From positions 1 through 23,769 of the IMG/VR virus record IMGVR_UViG_3300028571_000120: a stretch of 23,769 bases of DNA. One strand, 5' to 3'. A model generated the notes under the pieces. That model did not search any database and was not told where the DNA came from. It was given only the letters and a program-made list of their open reading frames with translations. This document shows positions 8,787 to 19,226 of the stretch, one piece after another. A program made the position numbers and the translations under genes. The stretch is from a virus. Every line of letters starts with the position of its first letter. The first letter of the stretch is position 1.

Positions 8787-9253
8787 TGGGAAGACCTGTT
8801 GTATCCTTAGAGAATAAAATTCTTAAATACTCTTCACCAGAAGCAATTACTGGTTGTATTTTATGGTTTGGTCCAACCTCAAGGGGTTATCCTAGAATTT
8901 CTTTAAAAAATAAGGAATACAGGGTAAGTCGATATTTGTATGAAAAAACTCATGGTAATTGTATAAATGATTTAAATGTTTGTCATACTTGCGACAATCC
9001 TTTATGCGTTAATCCAGACCATTTCTTTATTGGTACACACGCTGACAATCAACAAGATAAGTTTGATAAAAATAGACAGGCAAAAGGTGCTACACATGGG
9101 TGTTCAAAATTAAATAATGAGCAAGCAATGATGGCAAAATTTACGACAATCAAGCCAACTGTTTTAGCAAAAGAGTTTAATTGTTCAGCAACAATAATTA
9201 GGCAAATTCGCCAAGGCAAATATTGGAAACATTTGGAGAAGTTTAATGGATAG
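8783..9253 (+). CDS. HNH homing-type endonuclease with C-terminal HTH
   Basis: Predicted 156-residue nuclease of the HNH_3 type. Features in order: GCILWFGPTSRGYPRI (about residues 24-39); a zinc-knuckle and catalytic core VCHTCDNPLCVNPDHFFIGT (66-85) with C67, H68, C70, C75, N77 and H80; a following DNQQDK; and a C-terminal helix-turn-helix VLAKEFNCSATIIRQIRQGKYW (127-148) that would bind DNA. Such free-standing genes cut related phage genomes and spread into the vacant site. The gene overlaps its upstream neighbour by four bases and its downstream neighbour by eight, so it entered without breaking either. Its base composition looks clearly more AT-rich than the flanking virion genes, consistent with transfer. 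A ribosome-binding site-like AGGGA precedes the ATG; 8786 is a second possible ATG. Confidence 0.85.
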   Translation: MMGRPVVSLENKILKYSSPEAITGCILWFGPTSRGYPRISLKNKEYRVSRYLYEKTHGNCINDLNVCHTCDNPLCVNPDHFFIGTHADNQQDKFDKNRQAKGATHGCSKLNNEQAMMAKFTTIKPTVLAKEFNCSATIIRQIRQGKYWKHLEKFNG

Positions 9254-9911
9254 TAAGACCATTGGAATTTTGATTCCAACACGGGACTTTGTTAATGCTG
9301 GATTTGCCTATGATTTAGCCCGATTAGTGGGATATACAGTAGGTACAACAAACCATAAAGTAGTGATTTACACTAGTTCTGGAACACTACTATCTTCACA
9401 GCGTCAGGACCTAGCCAGAGATGCAGTTAAGGCTAATTGCACTCATACAATGTGGCTAGATAGCGATATGAGGTTTCCAAAGGACATGATTATTCGTCTT
9501 TTGGAAAGGGATAAAGGAATAGTTTGTGGGAATTATGCCAAGCGCAGATTTCCTACAGAGCCTATTGCGGTAAAGAAAAATACTCCAGATATGGATGCTT
9601 TATTTGTCAATAGGGTATATACTGAGGACGATTCAACAGGACTTGTTGAAGTAGACTACTGCGGAATGGGTGTAATGCTTGTTAAAGCCGAAGTCTATAA
9701 ATCTATGGAATATCCTTGGTTTGCTATACCTTGGGTTCCTGCTGCGGAAGACTACATTGGTGAAGATGTATGGTTTTGCCGTAGAGCCGCTGAGAACGGA
9801 CACAAAACATTTGTTGACCAAGATCTATCAAAAGAGATCTTTCACATTGGCACATTTGAATACAAACATGAGCATACATTAATGTGTAGGGATGTAGAAA
9901 ATGGCACTTGA
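9246..9911 (+). CDS. Glycosyltransferase, GT-A fold (GT2-like)
   Basis: Predicted 221-residue sugar transferase. The N-terminus IGILIPTRDFVN starts a Rossmann-like sheet. LARDAVKANCTHTMWLDSDMRFP (residues about 56-78) carries the DxD motif (D72, D74) that holds the metal and the nucleotide sugar. An acceptor/catalytic region with GEDVWFCRRAAENG (172-185; E173/D174) is followed by a late His-Gly (HIG, 200-202) of the type used for metal binding. All key positions are present, so the enzyme is probably active. There is no membrane segment. It has a good ribosome-binding site (GGAGA) and overlaps the HNH gene upstream and the adaptor downstream. Sugar donor and target are unknown; modification of capsid, fibre or host envelope are all possible. 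Confidence 0.8.
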   Translation: MDSKTIGILIPTRDFVNAGFAYDLARLVGYTVGTTNHKVVIYTSSGTLLSSQRQDLARDAVKANCTHTMWLDSDMRFPKDMIIRLLERDKGIVCGNYAKRRFPTEPIAVKKNTPDMDALFVNRVYTEDDSTGLVEVDYCGMGVMLVKAEVYKSMEYPWFAIPWVPAAEDYIGEDVWFCRRAAENGHKTFVDQDLSKEIFHIGTFEYKHEHTLMCRDVENGT

Positions 9912-10521
9912 TACTTTTAGCGGATTAAAGACAACCATTGCTGATTATCTGAATCGGGATGATTTAACGTCTGTCATTCCTTCATTTATCACTTTGGCAG
10001 AAGCTAAATTTAATCGTAAGTTGCGTGTTCGCCAGATGGTAAAACGTGCAACTGCCACTTTAGATACTCAGTATTTTGCTTTTCCTTCTGATTTCTTACA
10101 GGCTAAAGAGTTCCAACTGAATACAAATCCAATTACATATCTTCAGTATGTGACTCAAAATCAAGGTGATTACGCATCACAGAACAATTACATTACTGTT
10201 GGTAAACCACAATTTTATACAATTATTGGTACGCAAATAGAAGTTATCCCAACGCCTGATACTGGTTATACGGGTGAATTAACTTATTATGGTAAGATTC
10301 CTGCGTTAAGTGATTCAAATACAAGCAACTGGCTCCTAGCTTATGCACCAGACTTGTACTTGTATGGTGCGCTAGTTGAAGCTACACCATACTTGAAAGA
10401 CGATGAGCGTCTTGCCACATGGAGTCAGTTATATACCAACTCCTTGGGCGACATAGAAATAGCAGATCAAAGGGCATCTGTTGCTTCTACTCCGATTGTT
10501 CGTGCCCGATCTTTGGGGTGA
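9901..10521 (+). CDS. Head-tail adaptor protein, SU10 type
   Basis: Predicted 206-residue connector protein that binds under the portal and joins it to the nozzle. It begins MALDTFSGLKTTIADYLNRDDL, then IPSFITLAEAKFNRKLRVRQM (about residues 24-45), the helical pattern of the phage adaptor family found with SU10-like capsids. A beta-rich insert follows with YAFPSDFLQAKEFQLN-like and GKPQFYTIIGTQIEVIPTPDTGYTG segments. It closes with the helices ALVEATPYLKDDERLATWSQLY. The co-occurrence with an SU10-type coat protein strengthens the assignment. Its first 11 bases overlap the end of the glycosyltransferase gene and no strong ribosome-binding site is seen, so coupled translation is likely. A distantly related head-closure protein is the main alternative. 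Confidence 0.82.
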   Translation: MALDTFSGLKTTIADYLNRDDLTSVIPSFITLAEAKFNRKLRVRQMVKRATATLDTQYFAFPSDFLQAKEFQLNTNPITYLQYVTQNQGDYASQNNYITVGKPQFYTIIGTQIEVIPTPDTGYTGELTYYGKIPALSDSNTSNWLLAYAPDLYLYGALVEATPYLKDDERLATWSQLYTNSLGDIEIADQRASVASTPIVRARSLG

Positions 10522-10524
10522 TAT

Positions 10525-10917
10525 ATGGCTGGTTCATTTACAGATTATCTTGAAGACAAGATTCTCAAGCACGTTTTTACTAACGTAGCATATACCTCAC
10601 CAACTACTTTGTATGTTGGTTTGTTTACTACCGCACCTACTGATGCTGGTGGTGGCACAGAGCTTTCTGGTAGCGGATATGCCCGTAAATCTGCCGCTTT
10701 TACAGTAAGTGGAACAGGCACTTTGGCTACAAATAGTTCTGCCATTGAGTTTGATGCCGCTACTGGAACATGGGGAACTATTGTTGCTATTGCGATATTT
10801 GATGCTTTAACAACTGGCAATATGATTGCTTTTGCTGATTTGACAGCAAGTAAAACCATTGCAACTGGTGATATTTTGCGTATTCCTGCTGGTGATCTTG
10901 ACGTTACATTGAGTTAA
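10525..10917 (+). CDS. Phage tail/fibre-associated protein of 130 residues
   Basis: Predicted beta-rich protein. FTDYLEDKILKHVF (residues 5-18) with SPTTLYVGLFTTAPTDAGGGTE and GYARKSAAFTVSGTGT then AIAIFDALTTGNMIAFADL and GDILRIPAGDLDVTLS form a pattern I know from many phages, where it is labelled tail fibre or minor tail protein. Its exact place in the virion is not established from sequence. A strong ribosome-binding site (GGGGTGA) precedes the ATG and it follows the adaptor by three bases. It opens the long fibre region. The complete lack of cysteine and charged patches fits an extracellular structural protein. Confidence 0.75.
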   Translation: MAGSFTDYLEDKILKHVFTNVAYTSPTTLYVGLFTTAPTDAGGGTELSGSGYARKSAAFTVSGTGTLATNSSAIEFDAATGTWGTIVAIAIFDALTTGNMIAFADLTASKTIATGDILRIPAGDLDVTLS

Positions 10918-10919
10918 TC

Positions 10920-11375
10920 ATGGCATTAGTTATTGCTGATCGTGTAAAGGAAACTACTACTACGACAGGAACGGGTACGCTTACCCTTGCTGGCGCAGCT
11001 ACTGGTTTTCAATCTTTCTCTGTCATTGGCAATGGAAACACTACTTATTACGTAATAAGTTCAAGCACTAGTAGTGAATTTGAAGTTGGCATTGGAACAT
11101 ACACCTCTTCTGGGACTACGTTATCTCGAACAACAATTCTTTCATCTTCTAATAGTAATTCTGCTGTTAATTTATCAGCAGGAACTAAAGATGTATATGT
11201 TACTTATCCTGCGTTAACCAGTTCTACAAATGGTGTAATGATACAAAGTACAACAGTATCTGAAAACACGACAATAAGTGCAGGAACTAATGGCTTATCT
11301 GTTGGACCTGTAACAGTTGTTTCTGGTAAATCAGTAACCGTTATTTCTGGTCAAAGATGGTTAGTTTTAAACTAA
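10920..11375 (+). CDS. Fibre/attachment-related Ser/Thr-rich protein
   Basis: Predicted 151-residue beta protein. The N-terminal domain ADRVKETTTTTGTGTLTLAG with FQSFSVIGNGNTTYYVISS and FEVGIGTYTSSGTTLSRTTI (about residues 6-80) is a phage tail-protein module seen before fibre modules in many phages. The C-terminal part is Ser/Thr/Val-rich (VVSGKSVTVISGQRW). No enzyme motif or membrane segment is present. It starts two bases after the preceding stop and precedes a second Ser/Thr-rich fibre protein. It begins a set of genes (10920-12691) ending in a glycine-rich tip protein. Virion association is likely; the exact role is not known. Confidence 0.72.
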   Translation: MALVIADRVKETTTTTGTGTLTLAGAATGFQSFSVIGNGNTTYYVISSSTSSEFEVGIGTYTSSGTTLSRTTILSSSNSNSAVNLSAGTKDVYVTYPALTSSTNGVMIQSTTVSENTTISAGTNGLSVGPVTVVSGKSVTVISGQRWLVLN

Positions 11376-11384
11376 GGTGAAATT

Positions 11385-11819
11385 ATGAGTAACTTAAAAG
11401 TTCAAGGTAATGCCTCTGGTGCTGGAACAAGCACATTAGAGTCTCCAAATACATCAAGTAGCGTTACTTATTCGCTACCAGATACTTCTTCAAGTGTGAC
11501 ATTGGGCTATCTTAATATTCCCCTGTCGGGCATTAAAACGGCAAGCTACACATTAGTTGCGGGGGATGTAGGTAAGTTTGTGGAGTTGGGAACATCTGGA
11601 TCAGTCGTAGTACCTGCGTCTGTTTTTACAACGGGTGATGTAATTATGATTTTTAATAACACATCAGCTTCTATTTCTTGTACTTGCTCTGCTGTTACGA
11701 CAGTCTACAAGGGCGGTACAGATGCTGATATTGCTTCTTTTAGCGTAACTACAAGAGGTATTGCTACTATTCTGTTTATTACTGCCACAGTTGCCGTGGT
11801 AACAGGTAATTTAGCATGA
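11385..11819 (+). CDS. Fibre protein of 144 residues
   Basis: Predicted beta-rich protein that starts SNLKVQGNASGAGTSTLESP, a short N-terminal motif found at the start of phage fibre proteins, followed by SSSVTYSLPDTSSSVTLGYL. The middle (PLSGIKTASYTLVAGDVGKF, then VVVPASVF, GDVIMIFNN) resembles a domain often found between fibre stalk and tip. No charge-rich or catalytic parts are seen. A ribosome-binding site (AAGGTG) precedes the ATG. Its stop overlaps the ATG of the glycine-rich protein (ATGA), so both are probably made in fixed ratio and might form one fibre. Assignment is by motif recall and position. Confidence 0.72.
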   Translation: MSNLKVQGNASGAGTSTLESPNTSSSVTYSLPDTSSSVTLGYLNIPLSGIKTASYTLVAGDVGKFVELGTSGSVVVPASVFTTGDVIMIFNNTSASISCTCSAVTTVYKGGTDADIASFSVTTRGIATILFITATVAVVTGNLA

Positions 11820-12691
11820 GTGGCGTAATGCTTGGGATTGTTGGAGCTAGTTTTGCTAATGTAGCACCATCTGTTGAATATCTTGTAGTTGCTGGTGGTG
11901 GCTCTGGTGGCGGTCTTAATGGCGGTGGTGGTGGTGGTGCTGGCGGTTTTAAGACAGCTTCTGGATTTTCTGTTACCACGGGTTCACCTATTACTGTAAC
12001 AGTTGGTGCGGGTGGTAGCAGTGCCACTGGGGGAAACCAAGGAAATAATGGTTCTAATTCTGTTTTTAGTTCAATTACATCTACTGGCGGTGGCGGTGGT
12101 GGTCATGGAGTGCCCGCTGAAGCCGCAGGAAATAGTGGCGGTTCAGGCGGCGGCGGTGGTGGTGGTGATACTGCTGGTGGCTTAGGTGGTGCGGCTTCTC
12201 CAGCAAGTCAGGGATTTGCTGGTGGACAGGCATTTGCATACTCTGGTAATGCAAACGGAGCAGGTGGTGGTGGCGCAGGTGCTGCTGGCTCTAACGGGGC
12301 ATCTGGTTCACCAGGTAGAGGTGGTGTTGGTGGAGTTGGTCTTGCATCAAGTATTAGTGGAAGTAGTATTTTCTATGCTGGCGGTGGTGGTGGCGGATGT
12401 GGTGGCCCACCCAATGCTGGCGGAAATGGTGGTGGCGGTGCAGGTGGAACAGATAGCATTACAACGAATATCACGCCAACAGCGGGAACTGCTAACAGAG
12501 GAGGCGGTGGTGGTGGCTCTGGTGGTTACTCTCCGTCATATTCAACTGGCGCAGGTGGTTCGGGTATTGTTATCATTCGCTACGCTGATTCTTTTGAAGC
12601 TGCCGCATCTACTACTGGCTCACCAACAATCACAGTAGCTGGTGGTTATCGTGTCTATCAATGGACAGGTAACGGCTCAATCACATTCTAA
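11816..12691 (+). CDS. Glycine-rich fibre tip/adhesin-like protein (first copy)
   Basis: Predicted 291-residue protein, likely a receptor-binding tip. After a short hydrophobic start and VEYLVVAGGGSGGG (about residues 20-33), most of residues 30-250 are glycine-rich tracts separated by Ser/Asn/Ala turns. This composition is compatible with stacked polyglycine-II helices as in T-even-like gp38 adhesins. The end, GGSGIVIIRYADS followed by GGYRVYQWTGNGSITF, resembles C-termini I recall from other phage glycine-rich tips, and the N-terminal YLVVAGGGxG is typical of the same class. It shows no signal peptide. A second, different glycine-rich protein is encoded at 14410-15225. Overlap with the preceding fibre gene (ATGA) suggests they act together. 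An RBP role is inference from composition and place. Confidence 0.75.
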   Translation: MSGVMLGIVGASFANVAPSVEYLVVAGGGSGGGLNGGGGGGAGGFKTASGFSVTTGSPITVTVGAGGSSATGGNQGNNGSNSVFSSITSTGGGGGGHGVPAEAAGNSGGSGGGGGGGDTAGGLGGAASPASQGFAGGQAFAYSGNANGAGGGGAGAAGSNGASGSPGRGGVGGVGLASSISGSSIFYAGGGGGGCGGPPNAGGNGGGGAGGTDSITTNITPTAGTANRGGGGGGSGGYSPSYSTGAGGSGIVIIRYADSFEAAASTTGSPTITVAGGYRVYQWTGNGSITF

Positions 12692-12701
12692 GGAAGAACA
12701 A

Positions 12702-13070
12702 ATGGCACATTTTGCAAAATTAGATGAAAACAATGTTGTTCTTGAGGTTCATTGCGTCAATAACATTGAATTACTAACATCAGAAGGTCACGAATCTGAA
12801 GCGATGGGATATGCGTTTTTAGTTCGTTGGTCTGGTGGTTATTCTCGTTGGAAACAAACAAGTTATAACGGCACTATTCGTAAGAACTATGCAGGTATTG
12901 GCTTCACATATGATTCAACAAGAGATGCGTTTATTGCACCAAAGCCATATGAATCATGGATATTAAATGAAGAAACTTGCCGTTGGGAAGCACCAGTAGC
13001 AATGCCTACAGATGGCAAACGATATGATTGGAACGAATCAACAACTTCATGGGTTGAGTACACTCAATAA
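12702..13070 (+). CDS. Conserved phage protein of 122 residues, function unknown
   Basis: Predicted protein beginning MAHFAKLDENNVVLEVHCVN and containing WKQTSYNGTIRKNYAGIGFTY (about residues 50-70), then APKPYESWILNEETCRWEAP and a Trp-rich end. Close patterns (MAHFAxIDExNxVxxVxxVxN and WKQTSYNGxxRKNYAGIGxxYD) are very common in cyanophages and other aquatic phages, in virion gene clusters, with no proven function. I set the start at 12702, with AAGGAAG directly upstream, and not at the earlier in-frame ATG, because the longer form would overlap the glycine-rich gene. A structural or assembly role is probable from location. Cys residues (C18 and one near 95) are few. Confidence 0.78.
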   Translation: MAHFAKLDENNVVLEVHCVNNIELLTSEGHESEAMGYAFLVRWSGGYSRWKQTSYNGTIRKNYAGIGFTYDSTRDAFIAPKPYESWILNEETCRWEAPVAMPTDGKRYDWNESTTSWVEYTQ

Positions 13071-13075
13071 ACATC

Positions 13076-13261
13076 ATGCAAAACAAAATTGTACTTACTG
13101 ATGAACAACTAGAAATTCTGGTTGAAAAAGTTACTGAAAAAGTAATAGAAAATGTTTATATTTCTATTGGGCAAAGTATTGTCAAGAAGTTCTTTTGGAT
13201 CGTTGGTTTAGGAACAGTTGCAATTTTCGCATGGCTATCTGGTAATGGACACTTGAAATAA
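13076..13261 (+). CDS. Small single-span membrane protein, holin-like possibility
   Basis: Predicted 61-residue protein. The N-terminal 38 residues form an amphipathic helix rich in Glu/Lys/Val (LTDEQLEILVEKVTEKVIEN), and residues about 39-56 (FFWIVGLGTVAIFAWLSG) form one membrane helix with a short polar tail. The layout, helix then single span near the C-terminus, is shared with XhlA/holin-like phage proteins. Similar LTDEQL-start, VKK-span proteins occur as small phage membrane proteins. A lysis or fibre-anchoring role cannot be chosen from this sequence. It lies inside the fibre gene region. Its stop overlaps the next ATG (TAATG). No clear ribosome-binding site is seen. Confidence 0.6.
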   Translation: MQNKIVLTDEQLEILVEKVTEKVIENVYISIGQSIVKKFFWIVGLGTVAIFAWLSGNGHLK

Positions 13262-13731
13262 TGTTTGGAATAAGCGCATTTTCTGAAGTACCATTTTCAT
13301 CACTTTCGGGTGGTGCGGTACTCAATGCGGCTGCTGATGTAAATAGTGTTTCTTCTGTATCAACAAATGCAATTGGAATTTTAGTTGTTGCCGCAACTCC
13401 AACTAGTGAGTCTACAGTTTCTGTTTCAGCAAGTGTTATTAAGTCTGCCCAAGCAGAAATAGTATCAACCAGTACTGTTCAAGCTTCTGTTCTTTTAATA
13501 TTTTCATGTTCGGCAAATGTAGATTCAGTTTCCACAGTTTCTTGTGGGACTAGTTTAACAAGAGGTGTTAGTGCATTTATTGCTGGTGATGCTGTAGTGA
13601 CTGTTTCAGCTAGACTGAAATGGGAAGATAGTTCATTAGTAGCAGAATCTTGGACAACAATTTCAGATCAATCGGAGTCTTGGACTAATACAACAGACCA
13701 ATCCGAGACTTGGACAGTAACAACGCAATGA
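13261..13731 (+). CDS. Repeat-rich fibre/tail protein of 156 residues
   Basis: Predicted Ser/Val/Ala/Thr-rich protein. The start, MFGISAFSEVPFSSLSG, is a motif I know from phage tail genes (MFGISAFSExPFSxL). Residues about 20-115 are degenerate repeats of roughly 20 residues built from VSSVST, VSVSAS and VSTVSC blocks, probably beta strands stacked in a fibre. The C-terminus has an exact 10-residue period: ESWTTISDQS, ESWTNTTDQS, ETWTVTTQ (bases 13645-13728; the last unit is truncated to eight residues). The repeat suggests extension by tandem duplication. It begins on the stop of the membrane-protein gene (TAATG) and is followed by a fibre gene with a ribosome-binding site (GAGGT). Function beyond being a probable virion protein is not known. 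Confidence 0.66.
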   Translation: MFGISAFSEVPFSSLSGGAVLNAAADVNSVSSVSTNAIGILVVAATPTSESTVSVSASVIKSAQAEIVSTSTVQASVLLIFSCSANVDSVSTVSCGTSLTRGVSAFIAGDAVVTVSARLKWEDSSLVAESWTTISDQSESWTNTTDQSETWTVTTQ

Positions 13732-13738
13732 GGTAAAT

Positions 13739-14407
13739 ATGGCAGATACAACCACCACAAATCTAAGTCTTACAAAGCCAGAAGTAGGTGCATCAAGTGA
13801 CTCTTGGGGGACTAAGATAAATACAGACTTGGACTCAATTGATGCTTTGTTTGATACTGGTCCATATCTAAAACTTGCAAAAGGTGGGACTGGTGTAGGA
13901 ACTGCGTCTGATGCTAGAACAGCTCTTGCTGTGCCTGGTACTGCTATAAACAATACCTATACTGGTAAGCAAACATTTACTGGCTCAACTACTGCCATTG
14001 GCACTAAGTTTGTCAATGCGTTAGAGACAATTACCATCTCAGCTACTGCGGCTACTGGCACGATTGCTTATTACGCAACTACTCAGTCAGTTCTTTACTA
14101 CACAACTAATGCTTCTGCCAATTGGACAATTAATCTTACTGGTGCAAGCACTCCTGTAACTCTTAACACTTTGATGGCAACAGGTGAGTCTATAACTGTT
14201 GTCCACATGGTTAAACAAGGTTCTACTGCTTACTACAATTCTGTTGTTCAAGTTGATGGTACAGCAAGTGGTGTTACAACTGTTTGGCAAGGCGGTTTAA
14301 CACCATCGGCAGGTAACGTAAGTTCTACTGATGTATATACATACACCATTGTAAAAACTGGATCTGCTGCTTTTACAGTTTTTGCTACACAAACTAAATT
14401 TGCTTAA
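13739..14407 (+). CDS. Tail fibre protein of 222 residues
   Basis: Predicted fibre protein. ADTTTTNLSLTKPEVGASSDSW (from residue 2) with GTKINTDLDSIDALF is the standard opening of many phage fibre proteins. The motif LKLAKGGTGVGTASDARTAL (about residues 44-63) is the T4 gp12/gp37-type LAKGGTG...ARxAL repeat, found next to trimeric fibre shafts. The remainder is beta-rich with ITISATAATGTIAYYATTQS and a C-terminal YTIVKTGSAAFTVFATQTKF, a segment recurring in phage fibre C-termini. A good ribosome-binding site (GAGGT) precedes the ATG. It is followed directly by a glycine-rich tip protein, so the two may form a fibre/tip pair. Confidence 0.85.
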   Translation: MADTTTTNLSLTKPEVGASSDSWGTKINTDLDSIDALFDTGPYLKLAKGGTGVGTASDARTALAVPGTAINNTYTGKQTFTGSTTAIGTKFVNALETITISATAATGTIAYYATTQSVLYYTTNASANWTINLTGASTPVTLNTLMATGESITVVHMVKQGSTAYYNSVVQVDGTASGVTTVWQGGLTPSAGNVSSTDVYTYTIVKTGSAAFTVFATQTKFA

Positions 14408-14409
14408 TC

Positions 14410-15225
14410 ATGCCATTACTTAGCACTATTGCATCATCATCAGTTAAGGGCTTTGGGTTTGGGGCTAATGTTGTTGGTCAACAAGAATATATAAGTCCAG
14501 GAACATATTCTTGGACAGCTCCATTAGGCGTTTATAGTGTTTCTGTTGTTTGCGTAGGTGCTGGTGGAAACTATGCAACAGGAGGTGATCCTGATGGCGG
14601 CGGTGGCGGTGCTTTGGCTTATGCAAACAATATTGCTGTCATTCCTGGAAACACTTATACAGTAATTGTTGGTGCTACTAATAATACATATGGTGCATAT
14701 GGAGGCGATAGTTCATTTAATTCAACTAGTGTTAAGGCTGGTGGCGGTCAGAATGGATTTGGCGGTGGTGGTTTTGGTGGTGTTGTTATTTATGGTAGTG
14801 GTGGCGCAGGTGGAAGAGGCGCATTTGGTGGATATGGTGGACTAGCTGCTGCAGGTGCTGGTGCTGGTGGATACTCAGGCGATGGTGGTGCGGCTGGTGG
14901 ATTTACTGGAGATGGTGGTAATGGTGCTGGCGGTGGCGGTGGCGGCGGTGCTGGTGCAGGTGGATCAAAAGGTGGTGGTGGCGGTGGTGTAGGAATTTAT
15001 GGGCAGGGTGCTAATGGCGTTGGTGCAATATATGTAGTAAACATAAATGCTGGCGGTGGTGGTGGTTCAGGTGGAACTAATGGTAGTGCTGGTGGTGGTG
15101 GAACTGGTGCTGGTGGTCTTTATGGTGGTGGCTCTAGTCAACAAGGTGCTGGTCATGGCGCAGTCAGGATTATTTGGCCTGGTGTAACTCGCAGATTCCC
15201 ATCTACTCTTACTGGTAACTTGTAA
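14410..15225 (+). CDS. Glycine-rich fibre tip/adhesin-like protein (second copy)
   Basis: Predicted 271-residue protein. The start carries YISPGTYSWTAPLGVYSVSVVC (about residues 27-48), a beta-sandwich-like lead typical of phage glycine-rich tips (PGTYSWTxPxGV). Then come about 170 residues of glycine-rich tracts with Ala/Asn/Tyr spacers. The end GHGAVRIIWPGVTRRFPSTLTGN matches the GAVRIIWGxxRxFPST tail known in many fibre proteins. The glycine-rich part may fold as polyglycine-II helices whose loops contact the receptor. It differs from the glycine-rich protein at 11816-12691 in both ends, so the two are not simple duplicates. The stop shares its last base with the next ATG. Receptor binding is inferred, not shown. 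Confidence 0.8.
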   Translation: MPLLSTIASSSVKGFGFGANVVGQQEYISPGTYSWTAPLGVYSVSVVCVGAGGNYATGGDPDGGGGGALAYANNIAVIPGNTYTVIVGATNNTYGAYGGDSSFNSTSVKAGGGQNGFGGGGFGGVVIYGSGGAGGRGAFGGYGGLAAAGAGAGGYSGDGGAAGGFTGDGGNGAGGGGGGGAGAGGSKGGGGGGVGIYGQGANGVGAIYVVNINAGGGGGSGGTNGSAGGGGTGAGGLYGGGSSQQGAGHGAVRIIWPGVTRRFPSTLTGNL

Positions 15226-15878
15226 TGCCCAACTTAGGACAACAGTTACAAACCCCACCAATACCAAAGCTTGGTACATCTGGTGAGGCGTATTCTGCTG
15301 TTCTGCAAAACCAAAACAATAGCGTTTTAAATACCTTCTTCATCAGATTGGTAAACGCAATAAATTCTGCCCTTGGTATTCGTGGTGGTAAGTTCTTAAA
15401 TAACCCTTATGGTGCTTTTCAAGATAGTACAGACCAGACTGCTGCCAATACAACAACTGCCTATGCAGTCACTTTTAACACCACAGATTTTTCTAATGGC
15501 GTGACTATCGCTAGTAACTCAAGAATTACTGTTGCGGAAACTGGAATCTGGAACTTGCAGTTTTCCATTCAGTTTACAAATACAACAAATGCTTCTCAAG
15601 ATGTGGATGTTTGGTTTCGAGTCAATGGCACTAATATTGCCAACTCAAACAGCCGATTTGGCTTTGCACCCAGAAAAGGTGCTGGTGATCCATATCACAT
15701 CATTGCAGCCATGAATTACTTTGTCAGCTTAAATGCAACTGACTATGTTGAAATAATGTGGAGGCCAACCGATACGGGTGTGTCCATTGAACATTACGCT
15801 GCTGGAACAAGTCCAACAAGACCCGCAATTCCTTCAGCCATTGTTACAATGAGTTTTGTATCTAACTTATCTATATAA
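15225..15878 (+). CDS. C1q/TNF-like beta-sandwich fibre protein
   Basis: Predicted 217-residue protein with two parts. Residues 1-60 hold a leader with Pro-rich start and a helix (LNTFFIRLVNAINSALG). Residues about 62-217 begin NPYGAFQDSTDQTAANTTTAY and continue with DFSNGVTIASNSRITVAETG, then WNLQFSIQFTNT and DVDVWFRVNGTNIANSNSRF. This is the pattern of the C1q/TNF-like jelly-roll module found in many phage fibres and bacterial exosporium proteins. The end (AIVTMSFVSN) is the last strand. Such trimeric domains commonly bind surface ligands. It follows the second glycine-rich protein with a TAATG overlap, and the nozzle gene follows. A role as receptor-binding or fibre-capping protein is likely but not shown. 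Confidence 0.76.
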   Translation: MPNLGQQLQTPPIPKLGTSGEAYSAVLQNQNNSVLNTFFIRLVNAINSALGIRGGKFLNNPYGAFQDSTDQTAANTTTAYAVTFNTTDFSNGVTIASNSRITVAETGIWNLQFSIQFTNTTNASQDVDVWFRVNGTNIANSNSRFGFAPRKGAGDPYHIIAAMNYFVSLNATDYVEIMWRPTDTGVSIEHYAAGTSPTRPAIPSAIVTMSFVSNLSI

Positions 15879-15879
15879 A

Positions 15880-17355
15880 ATGGCCTACATTCCACTACAA
15901 ATACCGCCAGGAGTCTATAAGAATGGTACAGACTACCAATCTAAAGGACGATGGAATTATTCAAACTTAGTTCGGTGGTTTGAGGGAACTATTCGCCCTG
16001 TCGGTGGATGGCGAAAGCGTACTACTGACCAACTAACTGGCAAAGCCCGTGGGTTCATTAACTGGCGAGACAACAGCAACAATAGACGCATTGCTATTGG
16101 CACTCACTCAAAGTTATACCATCTAAGCGAATCAAACGCATTGACAGACATAACTCCAACTAGTTTTACTGTTGGTGATGCTGATGCTGTTCTTAAAATT
16201 GGTTATGGATATAGCACTTATGGCAGTTTTGCTTATGGTGTAGCAAGACCTGATACAGGCTCATTTACTGCAGCTACCACATGGAGTTTAGATACTTGGG
16301 GTGAGTATTTGGTAGGTTGCTCAACAAAAGATGGAAAGCTTCTTGAGTGGCAGTTAAATACGTCTAATGATGCTGTTGCTATTACCAATGCTCCTACTGG
16401 CAATATTGGTCTTATAACTACACAAGAACGATTCTTATTTGCCCTTGGTGCAGGTGGTAATCCTAGAAAAGTTCAATGGTGTGACCAAGAGAATAATACT
16501 GTTTGGACTGCTTCCGCTACCAACCAAGCGGGTGATTTTGAGTTAACCACAATTGGCTCATTGATGTGTGCCAAGCGAACCCGTGGTGCTACCATTTTGT
16601 TTACTGATGTAGATGTCCATGTGGCTACTTACATTGGCCCACCTTATGTTTACAGTTTTGAGCGTATTGGCTCATCTTGTGGGGTGATTTCCAAGCAAGC
16701 AGTTGCCGCTACTGATAACTCATGTATTTGGATGTCAAACTCTGGCTTCTGGGTATACGATGGTTTTGTAAAGCCATTGGCTTCTGATGTTGGTGATTAT
16801 GTATTTACTAATTTAAATACCCAACAAGCCTCTAAAGTCTATTCAGTTCATTTGGCTACTTATGGTGAGATTTGGTGGTTTTACCCAAGTTCAGCCAGTA
16901 ATGAAGTAGATTCTTATGTGACTTATAACTACAGAGAAGGCCATTGGGCTGTTGGCACTTTGGATCGTACTTGCGGTACAGACAGAGGCATATTCTCTAA
17001 TCCTTTGATGGTTTCTTCAGATGGGTATATTTATGAGCATGAGGTAGGTTTTGCTTATGATTCTCAGACTATATTTGCTCAGTCTGGACCCATTGAATTA
17101 GGTGCTGGTGACAGGGTTTTAAGCCTAAATGGGCTTGTTCCTGATGAGAAGACTTTGGGTGATGTAAAGGCTCGATTTGCTACCAAGTTTTACCCAACTG
17201 GCACACAATATAGCTATGGCCCATACACGATGGCAAACCCTACTTCTTTTAGGATTACTGGTCGACAAATAGCAGTAAAGATTGAAGGAAACACATTATC
17301 TGATTGGCGAGTTGGCACTATCAGATTTGATGGAAAACTAGGCAGTTTGCGTTAA
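15880..17355 (+). CDS. Tail nozzle-like protein
   Basis: Predicted 491-residue protein of a widely conserved phage family starting MAYIPLQIPPGVYKNGTDYQ, then WNYSNLVRWFEGTIRPVGGW (about residues 28-47) and ARGFINWRDNSNNRRIAIGT. Repeated beta blades (KLYHLSESNALTDITPTSF, FLFALGAGGNPRKVQWCD, TRGATILFTDVDVHVATYIG) suggest a beta-propeller, as in podoviral nozzles such as T7 gp12 and P22 gp10. In that role it forms the tail tube tip below the adaptor. I chose the ATG at 15880, as it restores the conserved N-terminus; an in-frame TTG at 15856 would add eight unrelated residues. The upstream stop lies one base before it. The nozzle name rests on fold-level resemblance and gene order, so an alternative tail tube protein remains possible. 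Confidence 0.68.
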   Translation: MAYIPLQIPPGVYKNGTDYQSKGRWNYSNLVRWFEGTIRPVGGWRKRTTDQLTGKARGFINWRDNSNNRRIAIGTHSKLYHLSESNALTDITPTSFTVGDADAVLKIGYGYSTYGSFAYGVARPDTGSFTAATTWSLDTWGEYLVGCSTKDGKLLEWQLNTSNDAVAITNAPTGNIGLITTQERFLFALGAGGNPRKVQWCDQENNTVWTASATNQAGDFELTTIGSLMCAKRTRGATILFTDVDVHVATYIGPPYVYSFERIGSSCGVISKQAVAATDNSCIWMSNSGFWVYDGFVKPLASDVGDYVFTNLNTQQASKVYSVHLATYGEIWWFYPSSASNEVDSYVTYNYREGHWAVGTLDRTCGTDRGIFSNPLMVSSDGYIYEHEVGFAYDSQTIFAQSGPIELGAGDRVLSLNGLVPDEKTLGDVKARFATKFYPTGTQYSYGPYTMANPTSFRITGRQIAVKIEGNTLSDWRVGTIRFDGKLGSLR

Positions 17356-17362
17356 ATATATT

Positions 17363-17833
17363 ATGATTGAACATGATTCTGAGAATTGGCGTGAAATAAG
17401 AAATGCCAAACTGTTAGAATGGTTTGGTGGCAACCAGAGTGCTGTAGACTTTTTAGTCGCTTTATCGGGTATTGCTGAGTTATGGGATGACTTGGTAGAT
17501 AAAGATAAAGAGCCTAGCAGAAAAGACATAGATATTGTCTTTTGGAATGCTCTGGTGACGCTACCTACAAATGAGTTCTTTAATGCTAATAGGGCGTTTT
17601 TAATGCCTTTAGTCATTCAGAGTATAAATGCTTGGCAAGACTCTGTAGAACTTGAAGGTGGTAATACCAACGACAGAGCCTATGCGCTCACATTGCGTAT
17701 TATTTCACTACAAATAGCACCAATGATAGTCTTATTGCTTAGAGGACAAAAAGCAATGAGAGAGGTGAGTACAGAAATGTGGCGGTATTTCACCTCACAT
17801 GATGATGCAATTAAATGGATACAAGGGGAATAA
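17363..17833 (+). CDS. Helical phage protein of 156 residues, function unknown
   Basis: Predicted soluble, mainly helical protein that contains WFGGNQSAVDFLVALSGIAELW (about residues 20-41), then IDIVFWNALVTLPTNEFF and ANRAFLMPLVIQSINAW. The C-terminal half has NDRAYALTLRIISLQIAPMI, a mostly hydrophobic helix that could be a membrane-associated or buried helix. It lies between the nozzle gene and the ejection-protein genes with a 7-base gap, so it is probably part of the same virion transcript. I recall such proteins in this position in environmental phage genomes but no function is known. Chaperone, nozzle partner or ejected protein are all open. Confidence 0.62.
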   Translation: MIEHDSENWREIRNAKLLEWFGGNQSAVDFLVALSGIAELWDDLVDKDKEPSRKDIDIVFWNALVTLPTNEFFNANRAFLMPLVIQSINAWQDSVELEGGNTNDRAYALTLRIISLQIAPMIVLLLRGQKAMREVSTEMWRYFTSHDDAIKWIQGE

Positions 17834-17834
17834 T

Positions 17835-19226
17835 ATGTCTCTAGGCGGTGGAAGTTCAAGTTCTCAGCAGTTAGATCCTGCTTTAAAAGATTTATTCTTA
17901 CAGAACTATCAAGGCGCACAAACTACTGCGGCTGGATTAGCTCCTCGTGAATTTGCAGGGTTTAATCCTGACCAACAACAAGGTTTTGCTTTAAATAGAC
18001 TATATGCAAGTCCACTTAGCGCACCCACTTTATACGCTACTGATGCCGCTAATCTATTAAGACAAAGTGCGCAATATAATCCACAAAATGTAGGCTATCA
18101 AAATGCCGCATCACAGGGATATAGTGCCGCACAAGGCGATGCCTCTTATGCAGGTGCTGCTGAAAGAGCCGCTGCCGCACAACTAAATAGGGGTGATATT
18201 CGCAATGTTGCATCACAAAATGTAACTGGTCAGCGAGTTGCTCAAGAGGCTTTAGGTGCTATTGCTCCACAAGCTAGGGCTAATATTCGTGATGTTACTG
18301 CTGGTTCATTCTTGAATCAGAATTTGCAAGCGTACATGAATCCTTTTACGCAAGCTGTTACTAATCAAAGCTTGAGTGATTTAGAGCGTTCACGACAACT
18401 TGAACAACAAAGAACTGCGGCACAAGCTACTGCGGCTAGAGCCTTTGGTGGATCTCGCCAAGGTGTTGCAGAAGCTGAAACTAATCGTGCTTATGGTGAG
18501 AATGCGGCTCGTTTAGTTGCTCAACAGAATGCTCAAGCTTATGAGGCGGCACAACGTGCTTCTGAGGCTGATTTGGCTCGTGCTATGCAAGCACAACAAT
18601 TGAATCAAGCTCAAGACTTGGCGACTACTCAGCAGTCTTTACAATTGGCAGGTCAGTTTGGTTTGGCGAATCAAGATGCGGCTTTACGGGCTGCTTTGGC
18701 TAATCAGGGTGTTGATGTGTCTACTGGTCAACTTAATGTCCAGAATGCTCAACAAGTGGCTTTGGCTAATGCTGCGGCTAGAAACCAGATGGCTCAATAC
18801 AATGCCTCAAATCAACAAGCAATGGCTTTGGCAAATCAAGCCGCTGCAAACCAAGCTGGTCAATTTGGTGCTGCCGCTTCAAATACTGCAAACTTGGCTA
18901 ATGCTCAGAATCTATTGCAAGCTAACTTAGCTAACCAACAAGCGGGGTTGGCTGCTAATCAACAGGGCATAACTGCTGGTGGTCAACTAGCAAGTGCGGC
19001 TACTAACTTGCAGAACTTAGGTTTCAATCAAGCAAATCAATTGCGTGACCAAGGTTTGGTTCAGCAAGGCTTCTCACAACAACAGTTGGATGCAATACGC
19101 AATCTACCTTTGGAACAACAACAGATTCTCAATCAAGCATTGGGTATCAATGTTGGTGGTGGATCTGGAATGCAATCAACATCTACTTCACGCCAAGGTT
19201 TGCTTGGTTTGTTTGGAATTGGTTAA
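17835..19226 (+). CDS. Ala/Gln/Asn-rich internal virion protein candidate
   Basis: Predicted 463-residue protein. After a Gly/Ser start (MSLGGGSSSSQQ) and LAPREFAGFNPDQQQGFALN (about residues 34-53), a mixed region ends with AYMNPFTQAVTNQSLSDLERSR and ARAFGGSRQGVAEAETNRAYGEN. This part is a signature I associate with large low-complexity virion proteins of aquatic phages. Residues about 210-420 consist of Ala/Gln/Asn repeats (LANQAAANQAGQFGA, LQANLANQQAGLAANQQ), predicted as a long coiled coil or fibrous helix. The start at 17835 has AAGGGG upstream and fits the conserved N-terminus; an earlier in-frame codon would overlap the previous gene. It lies first in a row of three large genes ending in the transglycosylase. 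An ejection or internal scaffold role is inferred. Confidence 0.62.
   Translation: MSLGGGSSSSQQLDPALKDLFLQNYQGAQTTAAGLAPREFAGFNPDQQQGFALNRLYASPLSAPTLYATDAANLLRQSAQYNPQNVGYQNAASQGYSAAQGDASYAGAAERAAAAQLNRGDIRNVASQNVTGQRVAQEALGAIAPQARANIRDVTAGSFLNQNLQAYMNPFTQAVTNQSLSDLERSRQLEQQRTAAQATAARAFGGSRQGVAEAETNRAYGENAARLVAQQNAQAYEAAQRASEADLARAMQAQQLNQAQDLATTQQSLQLAGQFGLANQDAALRAALANQGVDVSTGQLNVQNAQQVALANAAARNQMAQYNASNQQAMALANQAAANQAGQFGAAASNTANLANAQNLLQANLANQQAGLAANQQGITAGGQLASAATNLQNLGFNQANQLRDQGLVQQGFSQQQLDAIRNLPLEQQQILNQALGINVGGGSGMQSTSTSRQGLLGLFGIG

Follow-up and report, generated by a model that had tools for sequence, protein, structure and literature searches.

Changes of host specificity that leave fibre assembly unbroken have usually been studied in a few coliphages. 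In T2-type phages the N-terminus of gp38 docks on gp37, and a T2 phage without gene 38 used the gp38 of PP01 only with the N-terminal 113 residues of T2 swapped in (PMC12892980). In Pam3 the gp24 head is the host-recognition part and combines a conserved stem with a variable distal tip (PMC9608196), and GP4 has been reported with three fibre types in a title cited in PMC13243795. Here we analyse the tail-fibre region of IMG/VR record IMGVR_UViG_3300028571_000120. The whole record (23,769 bases, hereafter the window) is a complete virus record, and its structural module is that of a podovirus (terminase, portal, scaffold and capsid). From this region a GP4/SU10-type podovirus probably makes two distinct tail fibres, with separately encoded heads that dock via N-terminal connectors and with parts that have been reshuffled while the connector was kept matched. 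Fibre one would comprise an anchor (gene 10920, named by its first base) and a fibre segment (11385), and fibre two an anchor and shaft within one protein (13739). The putative host-binding heads, 11816 for fibre one and 14410 for fibre two (tips 1 and 2), have a predicted TNF-like plus glycine-rich fold. Docking is most likely non-covalent, between head residues 1 to ~16 and the C-terminus of the fibre protein encoded just before the head, and the receptor is most likely contacted by hypervariable segments that alternate with conserved glycine motifs. Among relatives, the parts (anchors, fibre ends and heads) are reshuffled with the connector staying matched to the fibre end, which would allow a phage to swap its head with assembly intact.

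Relatives were gathered as 80 loci by the adaptor gene (first set) and 85 further loci by the nozzle protein (second set, no overlap with the first), giving 165 related contigs altogether (L numbers); 69 of the relatives are full loci. All six open reading frames (ORFs) named in a first-pass annotation of the window were recovered at the same positions (Table 1), as were two fibre-plus-head sets, each with a glycine-rich head. In set 1 the fibre and head genes overlap by 4 bp; in set 2 the head gene starts 2 bp beyond the end of the fibre gene. The annotation had also proposed that the sets follow a parallel plan; the two fibre-plus-head sets stand, but 13261-13731 is no partner of 10920-11375, the one being a repeat protein and the other an anchor domain. 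What does run parallel is a pair of unrelated anchors, one in 10920-11375 and the other at the N-terminus of 13739-14407. Both fibres begin with a conserved N-terminal domain, and the two domains show no sequence resemblance to each other. The 10920 protein alone had no significant match in the PDB, nor did the set-2 anchor profile find a match there. A homologue of the 13739-14407 protein, phiM5_19, is on record as found in phage particles.

The best evidence that the heads are distal parts of two different fibres comes from the fusions seen among relatives. The set-1 anchor and a glycine-rich head are fused in one ORF in L002, L020, L021, L069 and L074, and the set-2 anchor and a glycine-rich head in L029, L031, L046, L059, L060, L076 and L081. 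In L002, the closest relative, the head so fused has a C-terminus nearly equal to that of tip 1 in the window. Segments of the 11385 type are fused to the set-1 anchor in L003/L006/L007, L019, L029, L063 and L067, and to the set-2 anchor in L036, L041-L043, L182, L188 and L199. Since each anchor is separately fused to a head in relatives, two distinct fibres are indicated rather than one branched fibre, which the first-pass annotation had offered as an alternative. A single branched fibre bearing both heads would suit the adjacency of the genes, and more than one fibre type in a podophage has precedent (GP4, by the title cited in PMC13243795). However, it is very improbable given that the unrelated anchors can each exist alone with their own head, and that set 1 is wholly missing from 44/69 full loci (the set-1 anchor is present in 25/69).

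Heads occur in both slots in 12 of the 25 full loci with a set-1 anchor, and the glycine-rich ORFs there are intact, so neither glycine-rich gene looks like a decayed remnant. Full loci contain up to four heads, and the partly covered L095 has five. In L095 (1-6400), L100 and L106, four class A heads in slot 1 and one fused to the set-2 anchor make up the five. In the window, both fibres would be carried on one virion, and their putative role in recognising two receptors or two hosts, as the first-pass annotation suggested, is plausible. An arrangement in which only one set is used per virion at a time, the second head giving an alternative specificity under other conditions or in mixed virion populations, is unlikely: L023, L202, L095, L100 and L106 carry 3-4 slot-1 heads with few fibre genes, as if docking sites were shared, but in the window each of the two different anchors has a single head, so that no competition is required.

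Table 1. Features of the tail-fibre region of the window and its borders.
Feature	Coordinates	Length	Strand	Family or structure match
Tail adaptor (SU10_adaptor)	9901..10521		+	PF24175 E 1.2e-39
gp80-like bead, GP4-type fibre I	10525..10917		+	PF23140 E 1.4e-43; PDB 8jou chain E 6.3e-9
Set 1 anchor domain (residues 1-98) and short fibre end (101-150)	10920..11375	151 aa	+	
Set 1 fibre segment; C-terminal end of type D3 (..ATILFITATVAVVTGNLA)	11385..11819	144 aa	+	
Set 1 glycine-rich head, class A; residues 1-16 putative connector	11816..12691	291 aa	+	PF21722 E 5.4e-23
Accessory protein	12708..13070		+	phrog_7759
Protein between the sets with one hydrophobic, membrane-like stretch	13076..13261	61 aa	+	
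Five ~20-aa beta repeats and W-containing C-terminal repeats	13261..13731	156 aa	+	
Set 2 anchor domain (residues 1-79) and fibre end of type D1 (91-221)	13739..14407	222 aa	+	
Set 2 glycine-rich head, class B; residues 1-16 (MPLLSTIASSSVKGFG) putative D1 connector	14410..15225	271 aa	+	phrog_4474 E 3e-46
Jelly-roll (BclA_C-like) protein	15225..15878		+	PF18573 E 1.9e-5, under Pfam cut-off
Nozzle-like virion protein, boundary of fibre locus	15874..17355		+	phrog_3287 E 4e-84

In the 165 contigs, the tail-fibre genes supply three kinds of part: an anchor, a fibre end and a head. The opening ~16 residues of each head track the type of the preceding fibre end, and the remainder differs and may be of a glycine-rich class or non-glycine. 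Using no hand-made classes or patterns, Mantel correlations between the fibre end and the first 25 residues of the head were strong (r = 0.80, first set; r = 0.64, second set); for the last 45 residues the values were 0.30 and 0.40, respectively. When six classes were defined, fibre end and connector matched in 29/30 and 12/12 cases, which was reached by no shuffle of 100,000. The connector of the same type followed the fibre end in 18/19 cases for D1, 16/17 for D2, 13/15 for D3 and 11/11 for D4, counts that take in any protein encoded behind a recognised end, whether rich in glycine or not. Moreover, D3 connectors share 54% amino-acid identity with fourfold-site identity at background (0.39 vs 0.37), which argues for constraint on the protein.

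Several observations weigh against docking through matched connectors. The patterns behind the connector classes were drawn up with both sets already in view, and the second-set Mantel comparison is for that reason a cleaner test than the class counts. The ORF after the fibre end is unmatched in L019, L099 and L204, and that of L140 is matched only approximately. Connector residues have low confidence in structural models of both heads (predicted local distance difference test, pLDDT, mostly <50) and no interface is visible. Finally, fourfold-site identity in D1, D2 and D4 connectors lies above background (0.59-0.60), so recent block transfer of some units plays a part too, and the matched ends could partly reflect linkage. 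The heads might then be independent virion or secreted proteins rather than docked adhesins, their conserved N-end being a recombination boundary beside the upstream gene. Recombination is clearly frequent, and both the third-base identity of these three connector types and the disordered N-ends of the head models (AlphaFold2 predicted no N-terminal helix in either) would fit such a boundary. We nevertheless consider it improbable, as one connector/fibre-end pair is found on two anchors with different heads, D3 connectors are conserved as protein at synonymous saturation, and the same head class is fused straight to an anchor in relatives. A separate observation at the head junction concerns L204, where the ORF directly after the D2 end (L204_4) has by eye a GIY-YIG-like start and is possibly a homing endonuclease.

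Docked heads that can be exchanged are also suggested by the distribution of head classes. Class A heads (tip 1-like) were found in slot 2 of L027, L040 and L148, and class B heads (tip 2-like) in slot 1 of L006, L029, L063 and L098. The D2 connector bears class A (L027, L040, L148), class B (L013) or non-glycine heads (L011, L014), while D3 is found on either anchor, bearing class A, class B or other heads. The D3 pair of the window, fibre end ATILFITATVAVVTGNLA with connector MSGVMLGIVGASF (MSGVML), is repeated in L199 as ATILFITATRAVVTGNLA with MSGIMLNVVGGTF, where the pair sits on the other anchor and bears a non-glycine head. This suggests that heads are traded as interchangeable modules by means of short connectors that match the fibre end. 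Tentatively, there may even be a general plug-and-socket code, whereby few fibre-end/connector pairs swap glycine-rich or other heads between the two anchors, and phages with 3-5 heads would show mixtures on one virion population.

DNA identity between the window and L002 is 82-96% in flanking genes, 63.9% in tip 1 and 74.2% in tip 2. Within tip 2 it drops from ~90% to 50-65% inside the gene, then stands at 93% at the C-end. Class B heads in slot 2 have an entropy of 1.66 at the non-glycine columns of the glycine domain and of 0.44-0.89 elsewhere (0.82 in the sandwich half, 0.44 in the final strand). Hypervariable segments, which the first-pass annotation had proposed to look for among relatives, are present in the glycine domain of tip 2. 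Such variation is what one would expect if receptor-contact loops were mounted on a conserved scaffold.

Glycine makes up 34.7% (101/291) of tip 1 and 36.2% (98/271) of tip 2. Polyglycine as a DNA repeat was rejected: the glycines use mixed GGN codons (chiefly GGT, GGC and GGA) and the region has only one tandem array, of 57 bp, hence the glycine richness is a protein-level composition. The heads do differ at both ends, as had been noted. Tip 1 is over the curated cut-off of Pfam Gly_rich_2 (PF21722; 82.6 vs 24.3 bits) and matches phrog_2295, whereas tip 2 matches only phrog_4474, no Pfam family (PF21722 included) being hit at E up to 0.1. AlphaFold2 models built on alignments of relatives had a mean pLDDT of 86.7 (tip 1) and 79.5 (tip 2). 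Compared with the Pam3 fibre, they gave VIA-align Z-scores of 13.3 (tip 1, over 171 residues) and 15.6 (tip 2, over 181 residues), and with the Bxb1 tail tip 13.1 and 11.8; the ligand-binding domains of ALK/LTK came next with about 5 and about 7. All stood well above unrelated background rows. According to the models, both heads would share the TNF-like plus glycine-rich fold of the Pam3 gp24 head, the Bxb1 tail tip and ALK/LTK. Profiles for classes A and B align over 77 columns only, with 31% identity, and a recent duplication was rejected. With one shared fold and so few aligned columns, the heads are distant relatives rather than recent copies, in agreement with the first-pass annotation. 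Its polyglycine-II (PGII) label was not established, the models matching the Pam3/Bxb1/ALK type; gp38 chains were not among the matches listed for the head models, which does not in itself exclude a likeness to a beta-helix with a PGII sandwich. Further head-like glycine-rich stretches lie beyond the nozzle gene in L043, L044 and L045, in the region equivalent to window 17799-19226.

The repeat protein at 13261-13731 appears to belong elsewhere. The best repeat period is 20 residues in 96/97 of its relatives, as in the window, and most of them have 5, 6 or 9 repeats, intermediate numbers being few. Where set 1 is missing, its counterpart lies directly 3′ of the gp80 gene. The protein has one of two N-end types, MFG or MAAYG, and in 68/68 loci (24 vs 44) the type goes with whether set 1 is present; the gp80 type switches together with it, though set 1, where present, separates both genes. 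Because it adjoins gp80 in loci without set 1 and its N-end type tracks the gp80 type, the protein is likely to be the rope of a GP4-type gp80 bead fibre, which would be a third fibre. A GP4 study (J Mol Biol 2023) reportedly describes a gp80 bead fibre with a rope, and five gp80 dimers are said to be present per fibre. The repeat number of the rope-like protein may set the gp80 bead count, in which case it predicts bead-fibre lengths of 5, 6 or 9 units. The gene is also directly upstream of 13739 in nearly every relative, and its profile found no match in the PDB, GP4 entry included, both of which would suit a fibre partner of set 2 rather than a rope. This is possible but doubtful, since the protein directly follows gp80 where set 1 is missing, the switch of its N-end with gp80 type and set 1 has no exception in either group of loci, and its five repeats equal the five gp80 dimers per fibre reported for GP4.

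The phrog_7759 protein was found in 8/8 full loci with a class A head and in 6/61 others, and also adjoins the class A head in slot 2 of L027. Its C-terminus (PTDGKxYxWDExTxSWVE) resembles a tail-fibre assembly protein and it may be a head chaperone; Pfam gave no support for a chaperone reading of 12708-13070. The small protein at 13076..13261 is kept in relatives carrying set 1, and no family was found for it; from its sequence, holin-like would be a guess. The jelly-roll protein is 54-85% identical among relatives, outside the variable sets, and its gene is kept directly upstream of the nozzle gene. No counterpart was found in the L029/L031/L059/L060 clade and its profile found nothing convincing in the PDB; it is a possible candidate for a tail-needle knob. 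The counterpart of the nozzle-like protein in MW202879 is annotated as a phage stabilization protein. An Anp1-like glycosyltransferase (PF03452) is encoded at 9246-9911, within the structural module and just upstream of the adaptor gene. No DNA-level match to the whole window was found among cultured phages, and the nearest portals in a phage collection were at 53% or less. A search for the host from genomes returned four distant capsid matches, 3/4 of them in metagenome bins, and no usable host.

Taken together, these data point to widespread uncultured aquatic podoviruses that carry a putative receptor-binding head in its own gene with its connector kept matched to the fibre end. They yield candidate docking pairs and a naturally occurring collection of heads, and would allow the fibre on which a head sits to be predicted from nothing but sequence.

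To our knowledge, glycine-rich heads are not known from GP4. The window does contain two GP4-type tail features, an SU10-type adaptor and a gp80-like fibre I protein (PF24175, PF23140, 8jou), and it pairs the latter, the bead protein of the GP4 tail (PDB 8jou; PF23140), with the repeat protein. Like the window heads, Pam3 gp24 (PDB 7ypx, 7yfw) has a TNF-like sandwich with glycine-rich loops. However, the Pam3 head is in one chain with its own helical stalk, with a baseplate dock and the chaperone gp25, whereas the window heads are separate ORFs with a short connector and no stalk; the head fold is the same but not the whole protein. In the brush domains of mycobacteriophages and LSH1 (PDB 9d93; PMC13243795) a glycine-rich finger domain is proposed as an antireceptor, but it is the C-terminal part of a tail-tip protein rather than a plug-in fibre head. 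Alteromonas phages share whole fibre modules across distant phages through recombination (PMC10579305); exchange in the group of the window is finer, with heads, fibre ends and anchors each moving separately. The separate-head arrangement is not confined to this group, since the cyanomyovirus contig L232 has a separate class B-like head, with its own N-end, directly after a fibre ORF. A further parallel in arrangement is gp38 of S16/PP01 (6F45; PMC6851490, PMC12892980), which is likewise a separate ORF directly after the fibre ORF, has glycine motifs alternating with hypervariable segments, and has an N-terminal end that must match the fibre, as connectors pair with fibre ends here. By analogy with gp38 in T2/PP01, we infer that the window heads dock on their fibres non-covalently. 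In contrast to gp38, whose attachment domain is helical and bears tryptophans and which also contains a beta-helix with a PGII sandwich, the window connectors (MSGVMLGIVGASFANVAPS and MPLLSTIASSSVKGFG) are ~16 residues long with no tryptophan and no predicted helix, and the predicted head fold is TNF-like. The gp38 principle, with much shorter connectors and another head fold, would explain the present data.

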